Part shown: positions 8,358-18,831 of the stretch, piece by piece
Position numbering within the stretch: position 1 is the first letter of the stretch
Layout: each line of letters starts with the position of its first letter
Origin: Chloroflexota bacterium
Lineage (GTDB): Bacteria > Chloroflexota > Anaerolineae > Anaerolineales > Anaerolineaceae
NCBI GenBank assembly: GCA_009773005.1
Contig: WOUT01000015.1
Coordinates: 1-50,524 of the forward strand
Direction: 5' to 3'
DNA: 50,524 nt
Position numbers and translations under genes: made by a program
Notes under the pieces: model-generated
The model's input: only the letters and a program-made list of their open reading frames with translations
What the model was told of the DNA's origin: nothing
The model's database searches: none

Positions 8358-11102
8358 TTATTTGCGGTGCTTTAGTGCAGCCTGACCAGCGGCCAAACGA
8401 GCAATTGGCACGCGGAAGGGTGAGCAAGAAACATAGTTATTGCCAATGCGGTGGCAGAACTCGATGGAGGCGGGGTCGCCGCCATGTTCCCCGCAAATAC
8501 CCACTTCCAGATTCGTGCGTTGTTGGCGCCCATCCTCCACAGCCATCTTCATCAACTTGCCTACACCATCCTGATCCAAAGTCTGGAACGGGTTTTTGGG
8601 TAGAATGCCTTCCTCAACATATTTTACGAGGAAGTTGCGTTCTGCATCGTCACGGCTATAACCATAGGTCATTTGGGTGAGGTCGTTTGTTCCAAAGGAA
8701 AAGAACTCGGCCACACTGGCAATCTCAGCAGCTGTAACCGCGGCGCGTGGAATCTCAATCATGGTACCGAACTTATATGGGAACTGGACGCCTTTTTCTT
8801 CCATGACTGCTTTGGCAATCCGTTCCAGCCTTGGCTGGATCCATGTTAGCTCATTCACGTGCCCGGTGAGAGGGATCATCACTTCAGGTTTGGCATGGAC
8901 ACCGCGTTTGGTACAATCCGCAGCAGCTTCAAAGATCGCTCTCACCTGCATCTCAACGATCAATGGCATGGCAATAGAAAGGCGCACGCCGCGCAGTCCC
9001 ATCATCGGGTTGCTCTCGTGCATCGATTTCACTGCCTCGAGCAGATCTTCTTTCTCTTTCAAACCTTTAGTCTCACCTTTAACCCGCATGGTGATGACTT
9101 CCTCGAACAAACCCTCTTCCGAGGGAAGGAACTCATGCAGAGGTGGATCGATCAGGCGGATGATGACGGGATAACCATCCATCGCCTCGAACAAGCCGTC
9201 AAAATCAGCGCGCTGGAACGGGAGCAATTCATCCAGCGCTGCTTTGCGAACGTCATCTGTTTTTGCCAGGATCATGCTCTGCACAATCGGCAGACGGGCG
9301 GGTTCAAAGAACATGTGCTCTGTTCGGCACAATCCAATACCGACAGCTCCGTAAGAGCGAGCCCGCTGTGCGTCTTTCGGGTAATCAGCATTTGCCCAGA
9401 CCTGCAAACCGGTAGTCGGCCATCCCTCTGGCGCTTGGCGGATGCCCTTGGTCGCGGCGATTTCATCAGCCCAGGTTAGCAGTTTGAGCAGATCAGTTTG
9501 TTCATCCAAAGTTGAAGCAGTCAGGTCCAACTTGCCGATGAATACTTCTCCAGTTGTGCCGTCAAGAGATATCCAATCGCCTTCCTTGATTACCTTGCCA
9601 TCAACATTCATTTCACGTTTATCAAGATCAATCACCACTGATGACGCGCCAACAATGCATGGTACGCCGAATTGGCGGGCAACCACTGCCGCATGAGAGG
9701 TAGCCCCACCTTCACTGGTGAGAATACCCTGGGCGGCGAGCATACCATGCACATCATCGGGTTTGGTGAAAGGGCGCACCATGATGGTGGCCTGTTTTTC
9801 TTCCTTTGCCATTTTTTCAGTTAGATCAGCATCAAAATATATCTGTCCAACCGCGGCGCCAGGCGAGGCATTTACGCCTGAGGCGTAAAAACGGCCGTCC
9901 TTTTTGGCTTGTAATTTAGTCTCAGCAGTAAACTGTGGATGTAAAAGCGTATCCACATCACCCGGGGTGACGCGTTTGACAGCTTCCTCTTTATTGATCA
10001 AGGCTTCGCCGACCATATCCACTGCGATCTTTACTGCGGCGAATGCGGTGCGCTTGCCATTGCGGCATTGCAACATCCACAATCTGCCGCGCTCAATCGT
10101 GAATTCTACATCCTGCATATCGTGATAATGTAATTCAAGTTTCTTAACGATTTCGAGAAATTGTTTATTGGCTTCAGGTAGATCGCGTCCGAGGGTATCG
10201 ATCTTTTCGGTATTGCGAATACCCGCGACAACATCTTCCCCCTGCGCATTTAGCAAATAATCACCGTAGAGAACTCGTTCACCGTTGGATGGGTTTCGCG
10301 TAAATGCGACTCCTGTGCCGGAATCATTTCCCATGTTGCCGAACACCATTGTCACAATATTGACAGCGGTTCCCAAGTCATCCGGGATATTGGTCGCGCG
10401 GCGGTAATCTACAGCGCGTTTGCCATCCCAGGATCTAAATACTGCTTCAGTAGCCAATTTCAGTTGTTCCAATGGTTCCTGTGGAAAGTCAAAACCTTTA
10501 TGGGCTTTAGTTACAGCTTTAAATTTTTCGACTAAAGCCTTTAAATCTTCGGCACTCAATTCAGTATCAGATTTGACGCCTTTGGTTTTTTTAGCTTCAT
10601 CCAAAGGATGTTCAAAAGCCTCATCATCGATCCCCAATACAACAGAACCGAACATTTGAACCAACCGCCGGTAAGAGTCATAAACAAAACGTTCATTGTT
10701 GGTCAGCTTAACCATCCCTTTTGCAGTTTCATCGTTCAAACCGATATTAAGAACTGTATCCATCATGCCTGGCATTGAAAATTTAGCACCTGAACGGCAA
10801 GAGACCAGCAAAGGATTTTCGGTATTGCCAAATTTCTTGCCCGCTTCTTTCTCAGTGGTTTTCAAAGAGTCAAGCATTTGGTCCCACAAACCGACAGGGA
10901 GTTTCTTGTCCCCTTGATAAGCATTGCATGCTTCAGTGGTCACGATGAATCCCGGGGGAACGGGTAATCCGATCCGCACCATCTCTGCCAGATTGGCGCC
11001 TTTACCACCTAATAATCCGCGTAATTTGTCCCAATCACCGCCTACATATTCCTCGGCTTGTTTGATTTCATTGAACAAATAAACCCATTTTTTGTCAGTC
11101 AT
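8358..11102 (-). CDS. ppdK: Pyruvate, phosphate dikinase
   Basis: Cytosolic interconversion of pyruvate + ATP + Pi and PEP + AMP + PPi; in anaerobes it runs in either glycolysis or gluconeogenesis. The start is MTDKKWVYLFNE (914 residues), with GGAGG 7 nt upstream. The N-terminal ATP-grasp part shows GGKGANLAEMVRIGLPVPPGF, the central swivel domain GGATSHAAVVARQFGVPC with the phosphorylated His, and the C-terminal barrel GICGEHGGDPASIEF with the acid/base Cys and CRTEHMFF. All key residues are present. Single-gene unit with its own promoter; a compact GC hairpin (CCCGCCAAGGCGGG, 11137-11150) lies in its leader. Confidence 0.97.
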   Translation of the reverse strand: MTDKKWVYLFNEIKQAEEYVGGDWDKLRGLLGGKGANLAEMVRIGLPVPPGFIVTTEACNAYQGDKKLPVGLWDQMLDSLKTTEKEAGKKFGNTENPLLVSCRSGAKFSMPGMMDTVLNIGLNDETAKGMVKLTNNERFVYDSYRRLVQMFGSVVLGIDDEAFEHPLDEAKKTKGVKSDTELSAEDLKALVEKFKAVTKAHKGFDFPQEPLEQLKLATEAVFRSWDGKRAVDYRRATNIPDDLGTAVNIVTMVFGNMGNDSGTGVAFTRNPSNGERVLYGDYLLNAQGEDVVAGIRNTEKIDTLGRDLPEANKQFLEIVKKLELHYHDMQDVEFTIERGRLWMLQCRNGKRTAFAAVKIAVDMVGEALINKEEAVKRVTPGDVDTLLHPQFTAETKLQAKKDGRFYASGVNASPGAAVGQIYFDADLTEKMAKEEKQATIMVRPFTKPDDVHGMLAAQGILTSEGGATSHAAVVARQFGVPCIVGASSVVIDLDKREMNVDGKVIKEGDWISLDGTTGEVFIGKLDLTASTLDEQTDLLKLLTWADEIAATKGIRQAPEGWPTTGLQVWANADYPKDAQRARSYGAVGIGLCRTEHMFFEPARLPIVQSMILAKTDDVRKAALDELLPFQRADFDGLFEAMDGYPVIIRLIDPPLHEFLPSEEGLFEEVITMRVKGETKGLKEKEDLLEAVKSMHESNPMMGLRGVRLSIAMPLIVEMQVRAIFEAAADCTKRGVHAKPEVMIPLTGHVNELTWIQPRLERIAKAVMEEKGVQFPYKFGTMIEIPRAAVTAAEIASVAEFFSFGTNDLTQMTYGYSRDDAERNFLVKYVEEGILPKNPFQTLDQDGVGKLMKMAVEDGRQQRTNLEVGICGEHGGDPASIEFCHRIGNNYVSCSPFRVPIARLAAGQAALKHRK

Positions 11103-11169
11103 TTTTATCCTCCAGATAAAATTATTACGCATCAACCCGCCTTGGCGGGAAATTAACACCAAATACTAA

Positions 11170-11197
11170 ATTTTACCATAAATCAACCTTGGGTAAA
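11170..11197 (-). promoter_or_regulatory. Probable ppdK promoter
   Basis: Minus strand TTTACC (11197-11192), 16-bp spacer and TAAAAT (11175-11170), giving a leader of about 60 nt. TTTACC and GGTAAA also form an inverted repeat spanning the two boxes. Confidence 0.5.
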
Positions 11198-11249
11198 CCG
11201 CTCGTTAAATTCTAAATTTTCATGACTGAACGTTGTTTTTGTAAACCAG

Positions 11250-11277
11250 TTGCAAGGTAAAATTTTACACTTATGCT
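11250..11277 (+). promoter_or_regulatory. Probable promoter of the response regulator gene
   Basis: TTGCAA (11250-11255), 16-bp spacer, TATGCT (11272-11277). The perfect 12-bp palindrome GTAAAATTTTAC (11257-11268) lies inside the spacer and could be an operator. Confidence 0.45.
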
Positions 11278-11313
11278 TGATAATAGAGAAAGAAAGGTAT
11301 CACTGGAGACTTT

Positions 11314-11724
11314 ATGAAAATACTTGTCATTGATGATGATCCTGCACTGACCGATTTGTTGAAACTAATTCTGGCGCCGACCAACGCTATAGTTTTCAGC
11401 GCAAATTCAGGAGCAGAAGGATTACGATTATTACGTGAAAAAACGCCCTCCATCGTTATCCTCGATCTGATGATGCCCGAGATGGATGGTTGGCAGGTCA
11501 CATCAGAAATTCGTTCCTTCAGTTCAGTTCCAATTTTGGTTCTTTCCGTTATCGATAATCCTGGCATGGTTGCTCTTGCGCTTGACGCAGGCGCAGATGA
11601 TTATCTTATCAAACCTGCGCCAAGTGGTGTGCTGATTGCCCACATCAACAGCCTCACTCGAAGAAAAACAGCCATAAGTCCAGATACTGCTCCCCTGCAT
11701 GTTAATTTGCGCTCCGTAATCTGA
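11314..11724 (+). CDS. Receiver-only response regulator (CheY-like)
   Basis: A 136-residue protein containing one receiver domain and no output domain. MKILVIDDDPAL gives the acidic pocket, LDLMMPEMDGW the phosphoacceptor Asp near residue 52, VLSV the Thr/Ser switch position (Ser), and YLIKPA the invariant Lys. About 20 residues without an identifiable domain follow. It probably acts through protein-protein contacts with a partner kinase or effector that is not encoded nearby. GGAG lies 8 nt before the ATG, and a strong terminator follows, so it is monocistronic. Confidence 0.9.
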   Translation: MKILVIDDDPALTDLLKLILAPTNAIVFSANSGAEGLRLLREKTPSIVILDLMMPEMDGWQVTSEIRSFSSVPILVLSVIDNPGMVALALDAGADDYLIKPAPSGVLIAHINSLTRRKTAISPDTAPLHVNLRSVI

Positions 11725-11726
11725 TT

Positions 11727-11753
11727 AAAACGTCACACAATAGTGGCGTTTTT
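11727..11753. terminator. Terminator after the response regulator, shared with cca
   Basis: A 10-bp stem (AAAACGTCAC with GTGGCGTTTT, one wobble, loop ACAATA) followed by a T-run on the plus strand; on the minus strand the hairpin is followed by TTTT too, so it can also stop the converging cca operon. Confidence 0.8.
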
Positions 11754-11778
11754 ATTTCAAATTATTCTTTATTAATTC

Positions 11779-13146
11779 TTATTTGAGTTTTTTTTCTTCC
11801 ACCCAATCTAATGCTTCTTGTCTTGTCAGCACTTCACCTGCAGCTTGTTCTTCGCGCAAGTTTTCAAGCAACTGTCCAATCAACGGTCCGGGAGTCAGAC
11901 CAAATTCGATTAATAAATCTGTTCCAGATAAAAGCATCTTCGGATCAACCACTTCAGGGTGTTCGAACCAGGTCTCAATAAGTCGACCGCATACCTCAAG
12001 CTCAAGCAGCCACAAATCATGATTCAATTCCGCAGTGACGACACTTGCCGTATCAGCCAAAGTCAACAATGCCAAGTCCAATCCTGCATCGCCTAGCCGC
12101 TTAAAATATTGAAAAATAATTCGATTGTCAAGCACACCACCATTTTCAACGAATTCATGCAGCCAATTCCTGTTCTTTAATAGGATATATAAATGTGTGC
12201 TTTCGTCATTTGACAGAGCCAGTTTCTTAAAAACCTCACACTCATCTACATGAGAAGTGTCCCATAAAAACGCCCCTAAATGATCCAGATCTTTTCTTGT
12301 TCTATATGAATTATTTGGCTGAGCCAAATAATTACTTAGATTTTTCCTTTGTTTCCCTAATCCAGAAATAAAAGAGGCAAGTTGAAAATAATCCCTCTTC
12401 AGCAAGCTAGAATCGTTGCCCAAATAAGACATAAATGAATCAAGAACACGCAGTCGTTGGAGCACTTTTGCAAAATTTGTTAAGTTTTCAATTCCTAGAA
12501 AAGGGAGTATGCCAAAGGAGTGAAGAAGTTGGACTGATACAGAAGTTTTTCCTCTTCCAAGTATTTTGAAAAATTCATCTCGTTTGCGTTCCTTTGAAAT
12601 TTGATCCAGATTGACCACTGTTTCTTTAAGTTCCTGAATTGTCGAGGATTCCATCTTCAGATCAAGCGCAACCGAGTATCGGATTGCTCGGATGACTCGC
12701 AAAGGATCATCTCGAAAACTGGAGCCAGAGCACGGTCGGAGCCATTTTTCTAATAAATCCCGCCCGCCTTTAAGCGGGTCTATCACATGGACAGGGTCAG
12801 TCAAATTGACTGCCATCGCGTTTATTGTAAAATCCCGCTCTCGCAAGTCTGCTTCAAGGGAACCACCCCGAAGTTGTGTAAAATCAAATACGATCCGGTC
12901 CCCATTACTCTCGTTTATGATCACGCGAGAAGTATTTCTTTCTTTATCCAGAATGTAAAAAGCACCTGATGTTTGGTCTGCCAATCGACGGGCTATTTTT
13001 TGAGTGCCGCCTGGGCAAATGATATCAAGATCATTATTACACTTGTTGAGCAGCGCATCACGCACAGCCCCACCCACTAAATAATAATTTTCCCCAGGTT
13101 GGATAAGCTGTTGAACATGTGCAATACTTTGCGGGAGAATGATCAA
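11779..13146 (-). CDS. CCA tRNA nucleotidyltransferase / poly(A) polymerase family
   Basis: A class II nucleotidyltransferase of 455 residues. The head holds YLVGGAVRDALL and the metal-binding NDLDII, then RGGSLEADLRERDFTINAMA, and the tRNA-recognising neck DDPLRVIRAIRYSVAL. The C-terminal half is helical and poorly conserved, as usual in the family. It most likely adds or repairs the 3' CCA of tRNAs, but A-adding and poly(A) polymerases cannot be separated by eye. It lies 9 bp after hpt, at the end of tdk-hpt-cca. Confidence 0.9.
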   Translation of the reverse strand: MIILPQSIAHVQQLIQPGENYYLVGGAVRDALLNKCNNDLDIICPGGTQKIARRLADQTSGAFYILDKERNTSRVIINESNGDRIVFDFTQLRGGSLEADLRERDFTINAMAVNLTDPVHVIDPLKGGRDLLEKWLRPCSGSSFRDDPLRVIRAIRYSVALDLKMESSTIQELKETVVNLDQISKERKRDEFFKILGRGKTSVSVQLLHSFGILPFLGIENLTNFAKVLQRLRVLDSFMSYLGNDSSLLKRDYFQLASFISGLGKQRKNLSNYLAQPNNSYRTRKDLDHLGAFLWDTSHVDECEVFKKLALSNDESTHLYILLKNRNWLHEFVENGGVLDNRIIFQYFKRLGDAGLDLALLTLADTASVVTAELNHDLWLLELEVCGRLIETWFEHPEVVDPKMLLSGTDLLIEFGLTPGPLIGQLLENLREEQAAGEVLTRQEALDWVEEKKLK

Positions 13147-13155
13147 AATATGACC

Positions 13156-13716
13156 CTATGCGCCAGACTGATACTTTTCCAGATCTACGACACCGATAAA
13201 TGGCAAATTGCGATAATAATCGTCAATATCAAGTCCATAACCAAAAACAAATTTGTTCGGGATGGAGAACCCGGTATATTTTACAGGTACATTAACTTCT
13301 CGGCGGTCTGCTTTGTCTAGCAACGTGCAAACGCAGAGACTCGCCGGTTTCCTGGTGGTCAATAGATCTAAAACAGCTGATATCGTGTGTCCGCTGTCAA
13401 TGATATCCTCGACTAGAATTACATGTTTATCCCGGATATCAACGTTCAAGTCAAGTGTAATTCGGACGTGCCCGCTCGTTTCACGGTTTCCGACACCGTA
13501 TGAAGAAACCGCCATGAACTCAATAGCATGCGGGATCGTAATCTTGCGCATCAAATCGGTTAAGAATAGTACCCCACCCCTTAAAATGCAAATTAAAAGC
13601 AAATTGTCAAGTCCCGCAAAATCTCTGCTTATTTCTGACCCCAATTCTGCAATCCTCGATTGCAGTTTGTCCTCAGGAACCAATATTTCACCAAGATATT
13701 CGCGGTAGTCTCTCAT
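13156..13716 (-). CDS. hpt: Hypoxanthine phosphoribosyltransferase
   Basis: Purine salvage enzyme joining hypoxanthine or guanine to PRPP to form IMP or GMP. In 186 residues the PRPP loop is VILVEDIIDSGHTISAVL (residues about 99-116), the pyrophosphate loop ILRGGVLFLTDL, and the purine-contact region KYTGFSIPNKFVFGYGLD. Length and motifs are typical for type I enzymes. The middle gene of tdk-hpt-cca: nucleoside and base salvage next to tRNA maturation. It complements the purine breakdown genes further along the window. Confidence 0.95.
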   Translation of the reverse strand: MRDYREYLGEILVPEDKLQSRIAELGSEISRDFAGLDNLLLICILRGGVLFLTDLMRKITIPHAIEFMAVSSYGVGNRETSGHVRITLDLNVDIRDKHVILVEDIIDSGHTISAVLDLLTTRKPASLCVCTLLDKADRREVNVPVKYTGFSIPNKFVFGYGLDIDDYYRNLPFIGVVDLEKYQSGA

Positions 13717-13739
13717 ATACGCTCCGTAATCTACAAATC

Positions 13740-14315
13740 CTAGTTTCTTGGAACTTTGTGGTGAACCCGGCAGCGAGCTTCGTACATTTCTGAAGCTCCG
13801 ACGATGATCACAGGATCATCGTATCTGGCTGGTTCGCCATTTACAAGTCTCTGCGTCCGGCTGGCAGATTCGCCGCAAACCATGCATATCGCTTGTAATT
13901 TACTCACTTGTTCCGCTCGAGCCATTAACACAGGCATACAGCCAAAAGGCTCTCCTTTAAAATTCTGATCGAGACCAGCCACGATCACTCTTAAGCCCTG
14001 CTCGGCGAGTATGTCAACTATTTCAACAATTTTATCGTCAAAAAATTGCGCTTCATCTATACCAACAACCGTCGTTTCTTTGTCAAGTTGTTCAAGGATT
14101 TGTGAAGATTTTTGGATAGGGCTTGCATCGAATTCAGAACCTGCATGAGAAGTGACTTTTTCGACACTATAGCGGTCATCAATTACGGGCTTAAAAACCT
14201 GTACCTTTTGTTTTGCGATAGTCGCCCGGCGTAGCCGCCGGATGAGTTCGTCCGTTTTTCCACAAAACATAGAACCGCAAATGACTTCTACACTTCCTGT
14301 TTTATGCCGCATCAT
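13740..14315 (-). CDS. tdk: Thymidine kinase (type II)
   Basis: Phosphorylates thymidine with ATP in the salvage route to dTTP. The 191-residue protein has P-loop [17 protein letters not shown], the catalytic region [12 protein letters not shown], the Zn-binding Cys pairs CMVCG and the later CRVH (the fourth ligand of the last pair is His), and the lasso loop before [20 protein letters not shown] lies just before the two adjacent ATG codons, either of which can start. First gene of the operon. A short hairpin lies 40 bp upstream. Confidence 0.95.
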
Positions 14316-14355
14316 TGCCCCTCCAAAATGAGATTTGATACCATTCTACCTTAAA

Positions 14356-14374
14356 CTGATACGGGATGTATCAG
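14356..14374 (-). promoter_or_regulatory. Inverted repeat upstream of tdk
   Basis: CTGATAC-5-GTATCAG, a perfect 7-bp inverted repeat. A candidate promoter, TTGTAG-17-TATCAG, overlaps it on the minus strand, and AAGGTAGAAT follows. It could be an operator or leader hairpin; nothing more can be said. Confidence 0.4.
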
Positions 14375-14394
14375 GTTCCTACAAGAAATCAAAA

Positions 14395-14416
14395 CACCTC
14401 CGGAAATCCGGAGGTG
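14395..14416 (-). terminator. Terminator of the rplU-rpmA-rpmE operon
   Basis: CACCTCCGG-ATTT-CCGGAGGTG on the minus strand, followed by TTTTGATTT, 18 bp after the L31 stop codon. It separates the ribosomal-protein operon from tdk. Confidence 0.85.
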
Positions 14417-14434
14417 CTATTGTATCGTGACTAT

Positions 14435-14911
14435 CTAAACAACGATTTCTTCTGCAGCGGCGGGTAAATCATAACCCAACTGGCGTAAGGTTTTCTTCAT
14501 ATCAATCAATGATTTTCGACCAAAACCTTCAATGGCGAGCATTCCGGCCTCACCTTCAGCCAGTTTTGCCAGGAGTTTACCAATATTATCCAGACCGGCT
14601 TTCTCAAGCGCTTCAGTGGACCGAGTAGGCAAACCAATTTCTCTCACTGATCGCTCAGGAGATACACGAGAGGTTTCTCTCGCTTTTTTCTCATCAACAA
14701 ATTCCTGCCGGGCCTGAAGTTTCTTGTAGAAGCGATCAACCTGACCTTCAATATCGATCATACGTTGCTGCTGACCCGTGAAAAACGGGTGGCATTTCGA
14801 ACAAACTTCAGTGCGAATCTCTTTCTTCGTTGAACCAGTTGCCCAGGTATTGCCACATGAGCAAACCACCTTAGCATCTGGATAGTACGTCGGGTGAATC
14901 CCTTTTCTCAT
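14435..14911 (-). CDS. rpmE: Ribosomal protein L31 fused to an RpoA C-terminal-like domain
   Basis: 158 residues against about 70 for ordinary L31. Residues 1-70 are L31 with zinc ligands C17, C19, C37 and C40 (CSC and CSKC) and the CHPFFTGQQ signature. A charged linker (about 70-88) leads to residues 88-148, which resemble the DNA-binding C-terminal domain of the RNA polymerase alpha subunit: [20 protein letters not shown] and [19 protein letters not shown], a helix-hairpin-helix. R97, G131, K133 and S134 align with alpha R265, G296, K298 and S299; alpha N268 is replaced by Glu100. The L31 part is certain; the second domain is by eye. It could bind rRNA or DNA, or contact polymerase. Confidence 0.9.
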
Positions 14912-14936
14912 TTTCGCTGACCTTCCTGATGTGGAT

Positions 14937-14977
14937 AATCTTTACAATTGTCGGTTGCCGACGGATATGTAAAGATT
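14937..14977 (-). promoter_or_regulatory. Long inverted repeat between rpmA and rpmE
   Basis: AATCTTTACA and TGTAAAGATT (perfect 10-bp arms) enclose a second small stem TCGG-CAA-CCGA. No T-run follows on the minus strand, so it is not a simple terminator. It may be a processing site, a partial attenuator or a protein-binding structure that sets L31 levels. Confidence 0.5.
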
Positions 14978-14983
14978 TTTAGA

Positions 14984-15247
14984 TTATTCAGAGACAGCTG
15001 GTTTTACATGAACCTGTTTCTGACCGTTAGGCAGGGTGTCATATTCCACCACGCCATGAGCAACAGCAAATAATGTATCATCGGTGCCAACTTTTACATT
15101 TAATCCTGGTTTGATTTTCGTTCCGCGTTGACGGACAAGAATGTTGCCAGATAGCACCTTTTCGCCCGCGAATTTTTTTACGCCAAGCCGCTGTGCATTG
15201 CTATCACGACCGTTTCGACTAGAGCCACCACCTTTTTTATGAGCCAT
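14984..15247 (-). CDS. rpmA: 50S ribosomal protein L27
   Basis: 87 residues, starting [20 protein letters not shown] as in mature L27, with no Firmicute-type N-terminal leader to be removed. The extended N-terminal arm reaches the peptidyl transferase centre. [14 protein letters not shown]-type core (here [15 protein letters not shown]) is present. It follows rplU by 5 bp, the usual gene pair. Confidence 0.98.
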
Positions 15248-15252
15248 TCTAC

Positions 15253-15570
15253 CTACTCCACATGAATCGATTCAATTTTCAACCGGGTATAATATTGACG
15301 ATGACCAGTCTTTACACGGATCCGTTTTTTGGGTTGATATTTGAAAATGATCAGTTTCGGTCCTTTTACATGATCAACCACAGACGTGGTAATTTGTGCA
15401 CCTTTTATTGCAGGGGAACCTACTATGTATTTTTCGTCCTCCACCAATAAAAGCACGTAGTCCAAATTTACCTTTGTGCCTATTTCGGCATCTATCAGGT
15501 CCACATCTAACGTAGCCCCTTCGACGGCTTTATACTGTTTGCCGCCGCTTTCAATGATAGCATATTTCAT
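15253..15570 (-). CDS. rplU: 50S ribosomal protein L21
   Basis: The start is [18 protein letters not shown] (105 residues), with GGAG about 10 nt upstream; a longer frame beginning five codons earlier is unlikely. Core features are GGKQYK and the C-terminal [14 protein letters not shown], which bind 23S rRNA domain VI. First gene of rplU-rpmA-rpmE. The leader from the promoter to the ATG is about 110 nt; I could not recognise a known L21 leader motif in it. Confidence 0.98.
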
Positions 15571-15684
15571 TATCAAATTCTCCAATCTTCACTTCGCCGT
15601 TTTCCCGCGCCAGTATCGCGCCGGTGTACGGGGAAGTTGGGAATAAACTTGCCCGCCCCAACATTTTAGGGCAAGGCAGAACGA

Positions 15685-15713
15685 ATTATAAAGGCTGGGT
15701 GTCAGACTGTCAA
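15685..15713 (-). promoter_or_regulatory. Consensus sigma-70 promoter of rplU-rpmA-rpmE
   Basis: TTGACA (15713-15708), 17-bp spacer, TATAAT (15690-15685): both boxes perfect, as expected for a ribosomal-protein operon. It gives a leader of about 110 nt. It also marks the end of the selB unit, whose stop is at 15751. Confidence 0.88.
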
Positions 15714-15750
15714 TGAAGTTGATATAGGAAAATTTCACTAACGTTTCCTT

Positions 15751-17646
15751 TTACCCGTTTAAAACTCGGCCTTCCCCATCACGATGGGTAACCCCGCGGC
15801 GGTCAAGATGCTCTAAAAATGCGAGTGAATATTTACGACTGGTTTGAAAGTGATCTCTGAATTTGGCAAGCATTAATATCCCTTCGTTCTTAATAATCGT
15901 TATTACATACTCAATCATTTCGGCATACTCCTTCGCACGAAATACTATTTCTTCTGAAATCCGGACTATCACACCAGTTTCGACAAGGGAATCAAATAAA
16001 TCTTCGCCTATCGTATCTTTGCATTTTTCAATCGATGGAGGATTGTATCGATCCTTCTCGAATAATTCCCATAGAAGGGCAATTTTCTTTTCTTGGGAAA
16101 TCGTATAACAAACTGCATGAGTTGCCAGCCTAATGCGGTTCTGTTGTAAGGCAATAATTCCAGTTTCTTCTAATTTTTGCATGAGAAGCGTTGCGCTTTC
16201 CCCTGGAATGCCTAATTTTGATTTCCACTCCTCAAGTGGAACACCAATCCGAAGTGGAAAACGGGCATGAAAATCTTGCAAGATTCTTTGATTTTTCTGA
16301 GTGATTTTTTCCCAACCCTGAAAACGAATAACTATATCGCTACCTTTCAGGTTTTCTTGGACGCCAAGTAACAAGAACAATTTTTTTGCCAGTATTAATT
16401 GGTTAATGACTTTTAAACCTTCCGGATCATTAACTCCCGCTTTGTGAATGATCTCTCGAATTAGTGTTGGTTCCCCATCCATTGTCAAATTGAGGATCAA
16501 ATCTTCAGGTGAATTACGTAACATGCTTTCAAGTCGATCCAAGATCCCGGTATCATTTAATTTATATCGTTTACCTGGATGAGCATCGAGGATAATACCT
16601 CCACCTAATGTTTCAGCAGGCGACATTCTCCTGATGATAAACCGGTCACCCTTTTCCACAATCAAAGGTTGCACAGTTTCAATTTGAAGCCACCCTGATT
16701 CGCCAGGTTTAAGCGACCGAGTTCCCAACACGCGCACCCTGGCGATCCGTTCTGATGCTGCGATGAATACTTTGACCATATCATCATGGTTAAGACAAGC
16801 TCCTGCTTCTTCGATCAATCGGATGTGCACATCTACTCTGCGGGTAGGTTGATACAGGTTTGGAAGGGTTAGAACATCACCTCGAGAGACCTGGTCTACA
16901 TTGATACCAGTTAAATTTACCGCTGTCCGGTTGCCAGGCTGGGCGACGGATTCCTTGCGCTTATGGGTCTGCAGACCTCGAATTCTGCACGAAATCCCTG
17001 ACGGCTGGATAAGAACTGACTCCCCTGTCTTAAGCGATCCATCAAGTAAGGTACCGGTTACGATCGTTCCAAAACCAGGCAATAAAAAAACTCGGTCAAT
17101 GGGTAACCGCGGCTTTCCAATATCTTTTTTTAAGGGAGTCACATCCAGGAGATCTGCAATTTGCAGTTTAAGGTTTTCGATTCCTTCACCGGTTTTTGAA
17201 GATACTTTTACAATCGGGGCATTCGCCAAGGCTGAATTGGCAAGAGAATTTCGTAAATCTGTTTCAACAAAACTTAACCAATCGGGATCATTGATCAAAT
17301 CAACTTTAGTTAAGACTATAATTCCAGTCTTTTTATCAAGTAAATTGATTATATTAAGATGTTCGCGAGTTTGCGGCATGATTCCTTCATCTGCAGCAAT
17401 GATCAACAACACCGCGTCAATTCCGCCAACTCCAGCAAGCATATTTTCAATGAAATCTTTATGTCCGGGCACATCAATAATGCTCAGTTCTTCCCCGTTA
17501 GGTAGTGTTAACCATGCGAAGCCCAGATCAATGGTCATTTCACGTTTTTGTTCTTCGACCAATCGATCCGGGTTAATTCCGGATAAAGCAGCTACGAGGG
17601 CAGATTTTCCGTGATCTACATGGCCGGCAGTAGCGATCACGTGCAT
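15751..17646 (-). CDS. selB: Selenocysteine-specific elongation factor SelB
   Basis: GTPase that carries Sec-tRNA to UGA codons marked by a SECIS hairpin. The 631-residue protein has G1 GHVDHGKS, G3 DVPGHKDF, G4 LTKVDL, EF-Tu-like domains 2 and 3 (LLPGFGTIVTGTLLDGSL), and a C-terminal region of winged helices (about 380-631, ending HRDGEGRVL) that would bind SECIS. EF-Tu itself lacks this tail. It implies a selenoproteome in this organism, but selA, selD and tRNA-Sec are not in the window and no selenoprotein gene was found here. Start is 3 bp after the coiled-coil gene, so the two are co-transcribed. Confidence 0.94.
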   Translation of the reverse strand: MHVIATAGHVDHGKSALVAALSGINPDRLVEEQKREMTIDLGFAWLTLPNGEELSIIDVPGHKDFIENMLAGVGGIDAVLLIIAADEGIMPQTREHLNIINLLDKKTGIIVLTKVDLINDPDWLSFVETDLRNSLANSALANAPIVKVSSKTGEGIENLKLQIADLLDVTPLKKDIGKPRLPIDRVFLLPGFGTIVTGTLLDGSLKTGESVLIQPSGISCRIRGLQTHKRKESVAQPGNRTAVNLTGINVDQVSRGDVLTLPNLYQPTRRVDVHIRLIEEAGACLNHDDMVKVFIAASERIARVRVLGTRSLKPGESGWLQIETVQPLIVEKGDRFIIRRMSPAETLGGGIILDAHPGKRYKLNDTGILDRLESMLRNSPEDLILNLTMDGEPTLIREIIHKAGVNDPEGLKVINQLILAKKLFLLLGVQENLKGSDIVIRFQGWEKITQKNQRILQDFHARFPLRIGVPLEEWKSKLGIPGESATLLMQKLEETGIIALQQNRIRLATHAVCYTISQEKKIALLWELFEKDRYNPPSIEKCKDTIGEDLFDSLVETGVIVRISEEIVFRAKEYAEMIEYVITIIKNEGILMLAKFRDHFQTSRKYSLAFLEHLDRRGVTHRDGEGRVLNG

Positions 17647-17649
17647 ACT

Positions 17650-18831
17650 TTAAGTTCTCTTTCCCAAAGATTGATTAAACGAGTCCAACAATTCCTGACT
17701 GAGTGTCAAGAAACCTCTAAATTGTTTTTGAGTTTCTTCATTGACTAGATGTACCGTATCTTTTAATTCCTGTGAAAGATCTTCGAGCGCTATCAAACGA
17801 TCAATGATTCGTGTAATTTGTCGATTCTCATCCCGTTGTTCTTCTTCGCGGCTTAGGTTGTAGTTCGTCCATCTTTTTTGGTCATCAGCCTTAAATGCAA
17901 CCCATTCCTGCCGGAATCGTTCTTCTGCCAGGCGATTCATTTCAGTAATCTCATTGATCCTTCTGTTGAATCGTTCGTTTACTTCGTCCAGATCTGCCTG
18001 AGATCTTTTTACAGATCGGTGAGTTTCTTCTAATGCAAGCAGTTGTGAATGATAGCTACTACTTAACTCCTCAATGTCAGAGAATTGTTTTTGCCAATCT
18101 TTCCAAACATTCTCTTTCTCGACCTGAATTAGGTTTTGTTTTTCAAGAAAGGCAGCTTGTTCCTGTTTTCGTTCCTTCTCAAGGTTCTGAATGTCATTTG
18201 TTCGAGTTTCGATTTTCCGAGTCGTTTCTTTGTATAGGTCAATCAAGTTGCGGTCTTCTTCTAAGCGTTTTCTTATCGTTGATGTCTCAATTTGCAGATC
18301 AGTAATCCGTTTATTTTCAATATTCAGCTCATTCGTCAATACTTTCTGTTGCCGCTGGAGATCGGAATCTGACCTATGTAATTCAGTTAGTGATTTTGAA
18401 ACATCGTCGATTTTTTGACTTAAACGCAATTCTTCTTCTGCTCTTGATTGCATTGTCTTTTTTAGCTCGGAAATCGACTTTAACTGCGCTTGAAATTCTA
18501 ATAATCTTTTGTTAATAAGTTCAGAATCCTCTTTACGTTGTTTTTCAATTTTCGTTTCGGCACTCAATAATTTCTTTTCGATGTCGGAGATTTGTTTTAA
18601 TATCTCCGTTTTGTAATCAGCAAAATCAGCATCTACTTTTTCAGCTCGTGAGGCTGCAGATTTTACAGTCTTCAATTCTGATTCAAGCGATTTGAGCTTA
18701 AGATTCTGTTTTGAATAGTCTTCTTTTATTGCCGCTTGATAATCTAATAATTCAGAAATTGTTTTTCGGTCTTTTTGTCTCTCTGAATCTAACCAATTTA
18801 ACCTTTTTTCCAATTCTTCGATTTCCATCAT
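17650..18831 (-). CDS. Coiled-coil protein of unknown function
   Basis: 393 residues, almost wholly charged heptad-like helix (KSLESELKTVKS, LQIETSTIRKRLEEDR, AAFLEKQNLIQVEKE) without signal peptide, membrane segment or recognised catalytic motif. It resembles SMC-like or myosin-like rods only in composition. GAGAGG precedes two adjacent ATG codons; either may start. It is located between the antiporter-like membrane genes (42 bp upstream) and selB (3 bp downstream), apparently within one operon. Whether it has anything to do with either neighbour is unknown. Confidence 0.75.
   Translation of the reverse strand: MMEIEELEKRLNWLDSERQKDRKTISELLDYQAAIKEDYSKQNLKLKSLESELKTVKSAASRAEKVDADFADYKTEILKQISDIEKKLLSAETKIEKQRKEDSELINKRLLEFQAQLKSISELKKTMQSRAEEELRLSQKIDDVSKSLTELHRSDSDLQRQQKVLTNELNIENKRITDLQIETSTIRKRLEEDRNLIDLYKETTRKIETRTNDIQNLEKERKQEQAAFLEKQNLIQVEKENVWKDWQKQFSDIEELSSSYHSQLLALEETHRSVKRSQADLDEVNERFNRRINEITEMNRLAEERFRQEWVAFKADDQKRWTNYNLSREEEQRDENRQITRIIDRLIALEDLSQELKDTVHLVNEETQKQFRGFLTLSQELLDSFNQSLGKRT

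Follow-up and report, generated by a model that had tools for sequence, protein, structure and literature searches.

The gene rpmE lies on the minus strand at 14435-14911 of the window, by which we mean the whole stretch of 50,524 nucleotides that was analysed. It is an ATG-started open reading frame of 158 aa, encoding ribosomal protein bL31 joined to a domain that resembles the C-terminal domain of the RNA polymerase alpha subunit (alpha-CTD). An earlier note on this DNA had given this span for such a fusion without stating a strand; the frame fits the span exactly on the minus strand, and the plus-strand reading has stops. The following features surround or make up the gene.

14396..14421, minus strand: GC-rich hairpin, then TTTT, directly after the rpmE stop; terminator-like, read by eye
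14435..14911, minus strand: rpmE, bL31 plus RNA polymerase alpha-CTD-like domain, 158 aa; from Pfam, the translation and the sole PF01197 match of the genome
14483..14662, minus strand: RNA polymerase alpha-CTD-like domain, residues 84-143; from PF03118 (5.4e-9), profile matches in the PDB and VIA-align
14663..14752, minus strand: arm, residues about 54-83; from a predicted long helix 54-82 (AlphaFold2) and length comparison
14717..14911, minus strand: bL31 domain, residues 1-65, with CxC...CxxC; from Pfam PF01197 (1.9e-26)
14922..14982, minus strand: predicted RNA hairpin of irregular shape, located after the L27 stop and before the L31 Shine-Dalgarno region; from genus-wide covariation
14984..15247, minus strand: rpmA (bL27), conserved upstream neighbour
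15253..15585, minus strand: rplU (bL21), upstream neighbour, here without an added domain

rpmA adjoins the fusion in 80/81 loci and rplU is found in 79/81, the loci lacking L27 or L21 being at contig ends and some of the 81 loci representing the same organism in two collections. Next to the L21 gene is what appears, by sequence reading, to be a SelB-like translation GTPase (15751-17646, minus strand). Downstream of rpmE are presumably genes for a thymidine kinase and a phosphoribosyltransferase, names that we take from homology and familiar gene order.

The predicted hairpin upstream of rpmE has an asymmetric inner loop and is conserved in the genus. Among 13 sequences, four of its 12 pairs are changed on both sides and 94.9% of cells pair, and its covariation score exceeds those of all 500 shuffles, the related sequences scored having also built the structure. 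It gives one match per genome in 14 of the 16 genus members, including one (G002) that was outside the model, and none in 45 other genomes of the order. Among single sequences, the one from the window has an unusual folding energy (z of -3.64), unlike most of the others (z of -0.2 to -2.0). A search of 11000-18500 against Rfam gave no match at E up to 1, whether to known L31 leader RNAs or otherwise. The hairpin is a candidate for an autoregulatory operator or a processing site of the rpmE cistron, and either is possible. It is alike in kind to the rpmE operator of gamma-proteobacteria, a likeness that does not imply homology.

The fused protein

Both parts of the protein are recognized by Pfam. 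Ribosomal_L31 (PF01197) covers residues 1-65 (E 1.9e-26; 92.5 bits, cut-off 27), the NF000612 match ends at residue 69 (89.5 bits, cut-off 70; E 7.8e-26), and the zinc cysteines are C17, C19, C37 and C40. RNA_pol_A_CTD (PF03118) covers residues 84-143 (E 5.4e-9; 36.1 bits, cut-off 23.8). Compared with the genome's own rpoA, residues 81-158 reach a BLOSUM62 score of 106, the best of 500 shuffles being 57. This rpoA lies elsewhere in the genome, complete and with its own CTD kept, and Pfam found no alpha N-terminal dimerisation domain in the 158 aa of the fused protein, which is thus not a polymerase alpha subunit. Given only one PF01197 match in the genome, fused bL31 is the sole bL31 detected and must serve the ribosome; from this and from homology, we infer that it would belong to the 70S ribosome and form a bridge from 50S to 30S.

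The added domain is related to RNA polymerase alpha by several measures. When a profile of 19 L31-CTDs was compared with the PDB, 51 of 51 sequence matches at E <=0.01 were to RNA polymerase alpha. An AlphaFold2 model of the CTD by itself (pLDDT 78.3) retrieved only RNA polymerase alpha among its best 50 Foldseek rows against the PDB, at a modest E of 3.7e-3 at best, and VIA-align superposed the model on alpha-CTD with Z up to 10.2 and an rmsd of 1.9 over 67 residues; helix-hairpin-helix domains of RAD51 came next (Z 7.4-7.6). The model of the whole fused protein has one helix at 54-82 and is of moderate confidence (mean pLDDT 75.8, pTM 0.42).

The architecture proposed in the earlier note, an L31 zinc ribbon followed by a charged linker and an alpha-CTD-type helix-hairpin-helix, is thus supported by Pfam, by the residues and by the fold. 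The note had suggested structure prediction and superposition on alpha-CTD as a check and had named two results that would speak against the idea. Neither came about: Foldseek and VIA-align do find RNA polymerase alpha for the CTD-only model, and the fusion is not an artefact of assembly or frame. Of 41 relatives, 38 have the open frame, as does the isolate Thermanaerothrix daxensis GNS-1. In one relative, G002, the fusion is in two pieces, as expected if two genes had been artificially joined elsewhere, but the break coincides with unknown bases (Ns). With an unbroken frame in dozens of independent genomes, including that of an isolate, and with L21 and L27 as conserved neighbours, we reject an artefact, the chance of which is negligible. 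The bL31-CTD fusion is real and maintained.

The two parts have evolved at different rates. Pooled over 13 genus members, for which synonymous sites are near saturation, pN/pS is 0.076 for the L31 part, 0.282 for the linker and 0.198 for the CTD, the CTD thus evolving more rapidly than L31 itself; dN/dS of the CTD is 0.04 to 0.06 in the five closest pairs examined. In part of one class the fusion is widespread and subject to purifying selection. The GQVDRF motif of L31 is invariant in 22/22, leaving the residues that reach the 30S head intact, and the distance from this motif to position 8 of the CTD profile is nearly constant, with an offset of 26 in 76 of 89 fusions (24 in two, 27 in two, 31 in L126, and 32 in eight proteins of families f30, f55 and f59). 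The tails of unfused L31 relatives in the phylum vary, with total lengths of 90 to 163 aa among those read.

Distribution and origin of the fusion

The fusion is present in 39 of the 41 relatives, the one broken by Ns included, and G006 and G029 have no L31 row. In the class, 48 of 199 genomes drawn carry it, a tally counted by hand from the matches listed. Its presence follows clades: fused genomes make up 10/10 of those sampled from the order, 5/5 of f24, 7/7 of f34, 9/9 of f49, 3/3 of f55, 3/3 of f59, 5/5 of f64, 1/1 each of f48, f60 and f62, 2/3 of f30 and 1/3 of f39. Re-listing the 49 class genomes that first had no visible L31 row gave no fused protein, with 13 of the 49 still lacking any L31 row. 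Among the matches listed for 251 phylum genomes, all full-length fused ones came from this class, and when 80 of the 96 genomes of other classes that fell outside this listing were re-run, none was fused. In a scan of GTDB contigs, 23 of 80 loci (a subset of 574) were fused, under titles such as Chloroflexi and Anaerolineae, and 56 of the 57 non-fused loci had an L31 of 64-108 aa (L069 was left out). Of 88 distinct fused proteins, 83 have all four zinc cysteines, with CxxC as the first pair in 17 of the 83. We observed loss of zinc cysteines in four fused proteins of f49 (L298, L143, L300 and L154) and one of f59 (L153).

An insertion in the CTD bears on where the domain came from. The equivalents of alpha 274 and 296 are separated by 26 or 27 residues in 80/80 L31-CTDs and in the rpoA of 84/84 class genomes; the spacing is 23 in 30/30 rpoA from other classes and in B. 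subtilis. This three-residue insertion, common to the L31-CTD and the rpoA of the class (84/84) and found in 0/30 from other classes, suggests that the L31-CTD was probably copied from the class's own rpoA, the best-supported origin. The insertion cannot carry that argument by itself, since NusA has the 26-residue spacing as well (6/6). NusA is nevertheless disfavored as the source by lower scores and a separate branch: the L31-CTD profile gives 22.7-44.1 bits for six NusA and 57.7-69.1 for rpoA of the order, and a 99-supported branch separates five of the six NusA from the rpoA and L31 domains in a tree with 35 of the 80 L31-CTDs. Two sequences, L153 and L163, are long branches in the trees.

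The number of fusion events is less clear-cut. In a tree of the rpoA N-terminal part from 45 fused, 39 unfused and 30 outgroup genomes, four changes of fusion state are needed, of which at least three are forced by starred branches; the genomes of unfused rows with no listed L31 were re-listed, and none was fused. These state changes, together with the linker-length classes, are hints of more than one fusion event. Holding all 42 L31-CTDs of a tree together was not rejected (p-AU 0.914), in a sample made of a random 30 of 76 plus named ones and without L132, L168 and the NusA of L163. L126 (G126 C87:19001-19474) is fused, and the other genome of its family with a listed L31 row is unfused; with its CTD near its own family's rpoA on the tree, L126 is perhaps a separate fusion.

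Comparison of 80 distinct L31-CTDs (among them L153, the most divergent module) with B. subtilis rpoA and 18 rpoA of the order, L160 and L161 being classed as such by length and sequence, reveals which parts of the alpha surface were kept. In rpoA, R265, N268, K271, R272, R293, N294, G296, K298, S299 and E302 are each present in 19/19. The window protein has R97, G131, K133 and S134 in the places of R265, G296, K298 and S299, and E100 at N268, an A at C269, G129 at N294 and D137 at E302. Across the 80 L31-CTDs, R265 is kept in 70, G296 in 74, K298 in 57 and S299 in 44, whereas N268 is kept in 11 (E or D in 47), N294 in two (G in 77) and E302 in five (D in 54). The hairpin reads GhG, in contrast to NFG in rpoA. 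The equivalents of K304, K305 and R308 are kept in 75, 73 and 77, K305 being a reversal of rpoA's usual D/E, and the mean net charge is +0.4 for L31-CTDs and -0.2 for rpoA CTDs. The earlier note had pointed to R265, G296, K298 and S299 as kept; this holds for the window protein and largely across the 80, but the rest of the UP-element surface is mostly replaced. The L31-CTDs (n=80) do not have the complete set of what we take to be the alpha determinants for UP-element DNA, namely R265, N268, C269, G296, K298, S299 and E302. Since N268 and N294 are mostly replaced, classical UP-element binding by the L31-CTD appears doubtful.

Alpha-CTD-like domains on other proteins of the class

bL31 is not alone, as alpha-CTD-like modules have spread onto other core proteins in the class (bS16, bL21, beta' and a kinase). 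Nine genomes read encode a bS16 with a C-terminal module (loci L310-L316, L324 and L331): G045, G139, G196 and G212 of f20, G081 and G225 of f54, and G113, G159 and G178 of f58. bL21 has an alpha-CTD-like C-terminal domain in G045, G139, G212 and G113 (L307, L308, L309 and L333). The four bS16 and bL21 proteins tested with Pfam match PF00886 or PF00829 as well as PF03118 above the cut-off, PF03118 scoring 43.0 and 40.5 bits in two bS16 and 51.8 and 44.0 bits in two bL21. The modules of the three f20 bL21 have the 23-residue spacing, without the insertion, and may thus stem from another source.

On the transcription side, the beta' subunit of RNA polymerase carries a module inside the Rpb1 domain 3 region in eight loci read (L318, L319, L320, L321, L326, L334, L339 and L340; families f29, f31, f33, f35, f47 and f52), and of two tested with Pfam one is above the cut-off (26.4 bits) and one below it (21.5 against 23.8). 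The C-terminal domain is alpha-CTD-like in all six NusA read from the order. Other hosts include a deoxynucleoside kinase interrupted in frame by the domain (L325, G064 C298; 47.5 bits), an HTH regulator (28.7 bits) and large proteins with two to six repeats (L327, L328, L329, L330 and L317), one repeat protein showing six modules with the A6 profile and five stretches with Pfam. One of these five large proteins also matches sigma-70 region 4. A membrane protein, bactofilin-like by reading (L159, G024 C8:593459-593734), ends in an alpha-CTD-like domain, which the tree places among L31-CTDs.

We took a census of modules in 39 class genomes, one per family, plus two genomes of other classes. The L31-CTD occurs in six of the 39, the bS16-CTD in three and the bL21-CTD in two, the latter two being bS16-CTD carriers as well. 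Nine genomes have a module in a beta'-sized frame, three of these frames read as beta' and the remainder named by length only, and these nine genomes do not overlap with the six that carry an L31-CTD. The two genomes from other classes gave matches of rpoA size only. Among 18 modules from different hosts, the R265 and G296 equivalents are identical in 18/18 and S299 in at least 90%, in keeping with a shared grip on the backbone. With the helix-hairpin-helix grip kept on every host, contact with nucleic acid is the simplest shared function.

Possible roles and comparison with known systems

In two papers, the N-domain of bL31 is placed on the 50S central protuberance and the C-terminal end at uS13, uS19, uS14 and 16S helices 41/42 of the 30S head (PMC7530986, PMC9966373). 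Because known bL31 ends there, we expect the extra arm to start at the 30S head and the CTD to lie on the head past uS14. There, we suggest, the helix-hairpin-helix face (R97, G129-x-G131, K133 and S134) and a basic helix (K139, K140 and R143) would grip nucleic acid. The target would most likely be 16S rRNA or a neighboring protein, and the CTD would give the intersubunit bridge one more foot, staying on the ribosome permanently instead of binding promoters. Such docking is suggested by a fixed arm on a protein that belongs permanently to the ribosome, and the near-constant arm, set against the variable tails of unfused relatives, argues for a fixed reach, unlike a floppy tether. We favor this reading tentatively, giving it somewhat less than an even chance. 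In 47/80, the N268 position holds E or D, which might push nucleic acid away, the mean net charge is just +0.4, and the AlphaFold models are of moderate confidence. The constancy of the arm could come in part from common descent. Moreover, no one docking site can account for all carriers, bS16, bL21 and beta' being located elsewhere, and the existence of these carriers lowers the odds of a structural foot specific to L31 and raises those of looser tethering or neutral spread.

This last alternative, in which the domain is a loose tether to DNA or the nucleoid, or a largely neutral add-on arising from chance fusions tolerated at exposed ends of abundant proteins, is a serious rival in view of the many unrelated hosts (bS16, bL21, beta', the deoxynucleoside kinase, the HTH regulator, the membrane protein and the multi-copy proteins) and of the 151 of 199 class genomes in which no fused L31 was seen. 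We nonetheless regard it as the lesser prospect, since the CTD is under purifying selection, the arm is constant, and the fusion is kept in 42/42 sampled genomes of the order, f24, f34, f49, f55, f59 and f64, with six further fused genomes in f30, f39, f48, f60 and f62. The CTD might instead couple transcription to translation by holding the NusA C-terminal domain, sigma, regulators or the polymerase near the uS14-uS10-uS3 block. The bL31 C-terminus reaches uS14 (PMC9966373), uS3-uS10-uS14 form a rigid block (PMC11711686), the NusG-CTD binds uS10, and the AR2 domain of NusA binds alpha-CTD (the last two among PMC12820379, PMC10953045, PMC12297416 and PMC4642336). The six NusA of the order with an alpha-CTD-like C-terminal domain would fit such a link, as would the occurrence, in this class, of related modules on the transcription machinery (beta' and NusA) as well as on the ribosome (bL31, bL21 and bS16). 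However, of the alpha surface that the lineage's rpoA keeps without exception, the L31 copy has lost a part (N268, K271, R272, R293 and N294), bS16 and bL21 are not known to lie near the uS14-uS10-uS3 face of the ribosome, and the genomes with an L31-CTD and those with a beta'-sized carrier are disjoint in the census, which suggests that the two are not co-required. We therefore consider a coupler unlikely; rRNA binding fits somewhat better than a bridge between ribosome and polymerase.

Autoregulation, with free fused bL31 binding its own operon DNA or RNA through the CTD, has a precedent of sorts in gamma-proteobacteria, where bL31 represses its own mRNA through a hairpin, the repressor part being the N-terminal segment (PMC10931766). 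The covarying hairpin just before rpmE, once per genome in the genus, is in line with this idea. The N-terminal position of the known repressor segment implies that the hairpin does not need the CTD, and a search of 61 relatives gave the hairpin in 14, all of this genus, whereas the fusion occurs across many families. A role for the CTD in autoregulation seems to us very improbable, even though a conserved hairpin does precede rpmE in the genus. A broader proposal is that alpha-CTD serves as a shared docking module on ribosomes (bL31, bL21 and bS16) and transcription machinery (beta' and NusA), providing a lineage-specific link between ribosome and polymerase or to the nucleoid. We think this distinctly unlikely; if true, the shared module would be a built-in code for transcription-translation coupling with no known counterpart in model bacteria.

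Some ribosomal proteins are known to carry lineage-specific extensions, and helix-hairpin-helix extensions of L21 are annotated in other bacteria. In the open-access literature searched, which excludes most subscription papers, we found no report of an RNA polymerase domain on bL31, bS16 or bL21, or of its spread, and the accessible part of a paper on RNA polymerase insertions does not mention the alpha subunit, its CTD, helix-hairpin-helix domains or Anaerolineae (PMC11515920). Here, a ribosomal protein universal among bacteria has acquired a domain copied from RNA polymerase and has retained it, and like domains occur on two further ribosomal proteins and within the polymerase in sister families. 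These observations make it testable whether peripheral ribosome domains can be recruited from the transcription machinery and whether shared modules link the two machines in some bacteria. They also matter for annotation: a PF03118 match in this class is no proof of an alpha subunit, and the lengths of L31, L21 and S16 vary among families of the class.

Compared with known systems, fused bL31 shares with the zinc form (PF01197; NF000612) the domain over residues 1-65/69 and the four cysteines, and it is about 59% identical over the domain to chains of Thermus thermophilus in the Foldseek list; the zinc form lacks the roughly 90 extra residues of arm and alpha-CTD-like domain. The RNA polymerase alpha-CTD (PF03118) has in common with the L31 copy the Pfam match, the fold and the three-residue insertion of class rpoA, but it sits on the alpha subunit, and the L31 copy has N268 and N294 mostly replaced, K305 for D/E and GhG for NFG. 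The AR-like helix-hairpin-helix at the C-terminus of NusA has a related fold, the 26-residue spacing and the GhG hairpin; it differs in its lower L31-CTD profile scores and in the placement of five of six on their own 99-supported branch. The bS16-CTD and bL21-CTD of other families in the same class likewise join a ribosomal protein to an alpha-CTD-like domain, although at other ribosome sites and, for the f20 bL21 modules, without the insertion.
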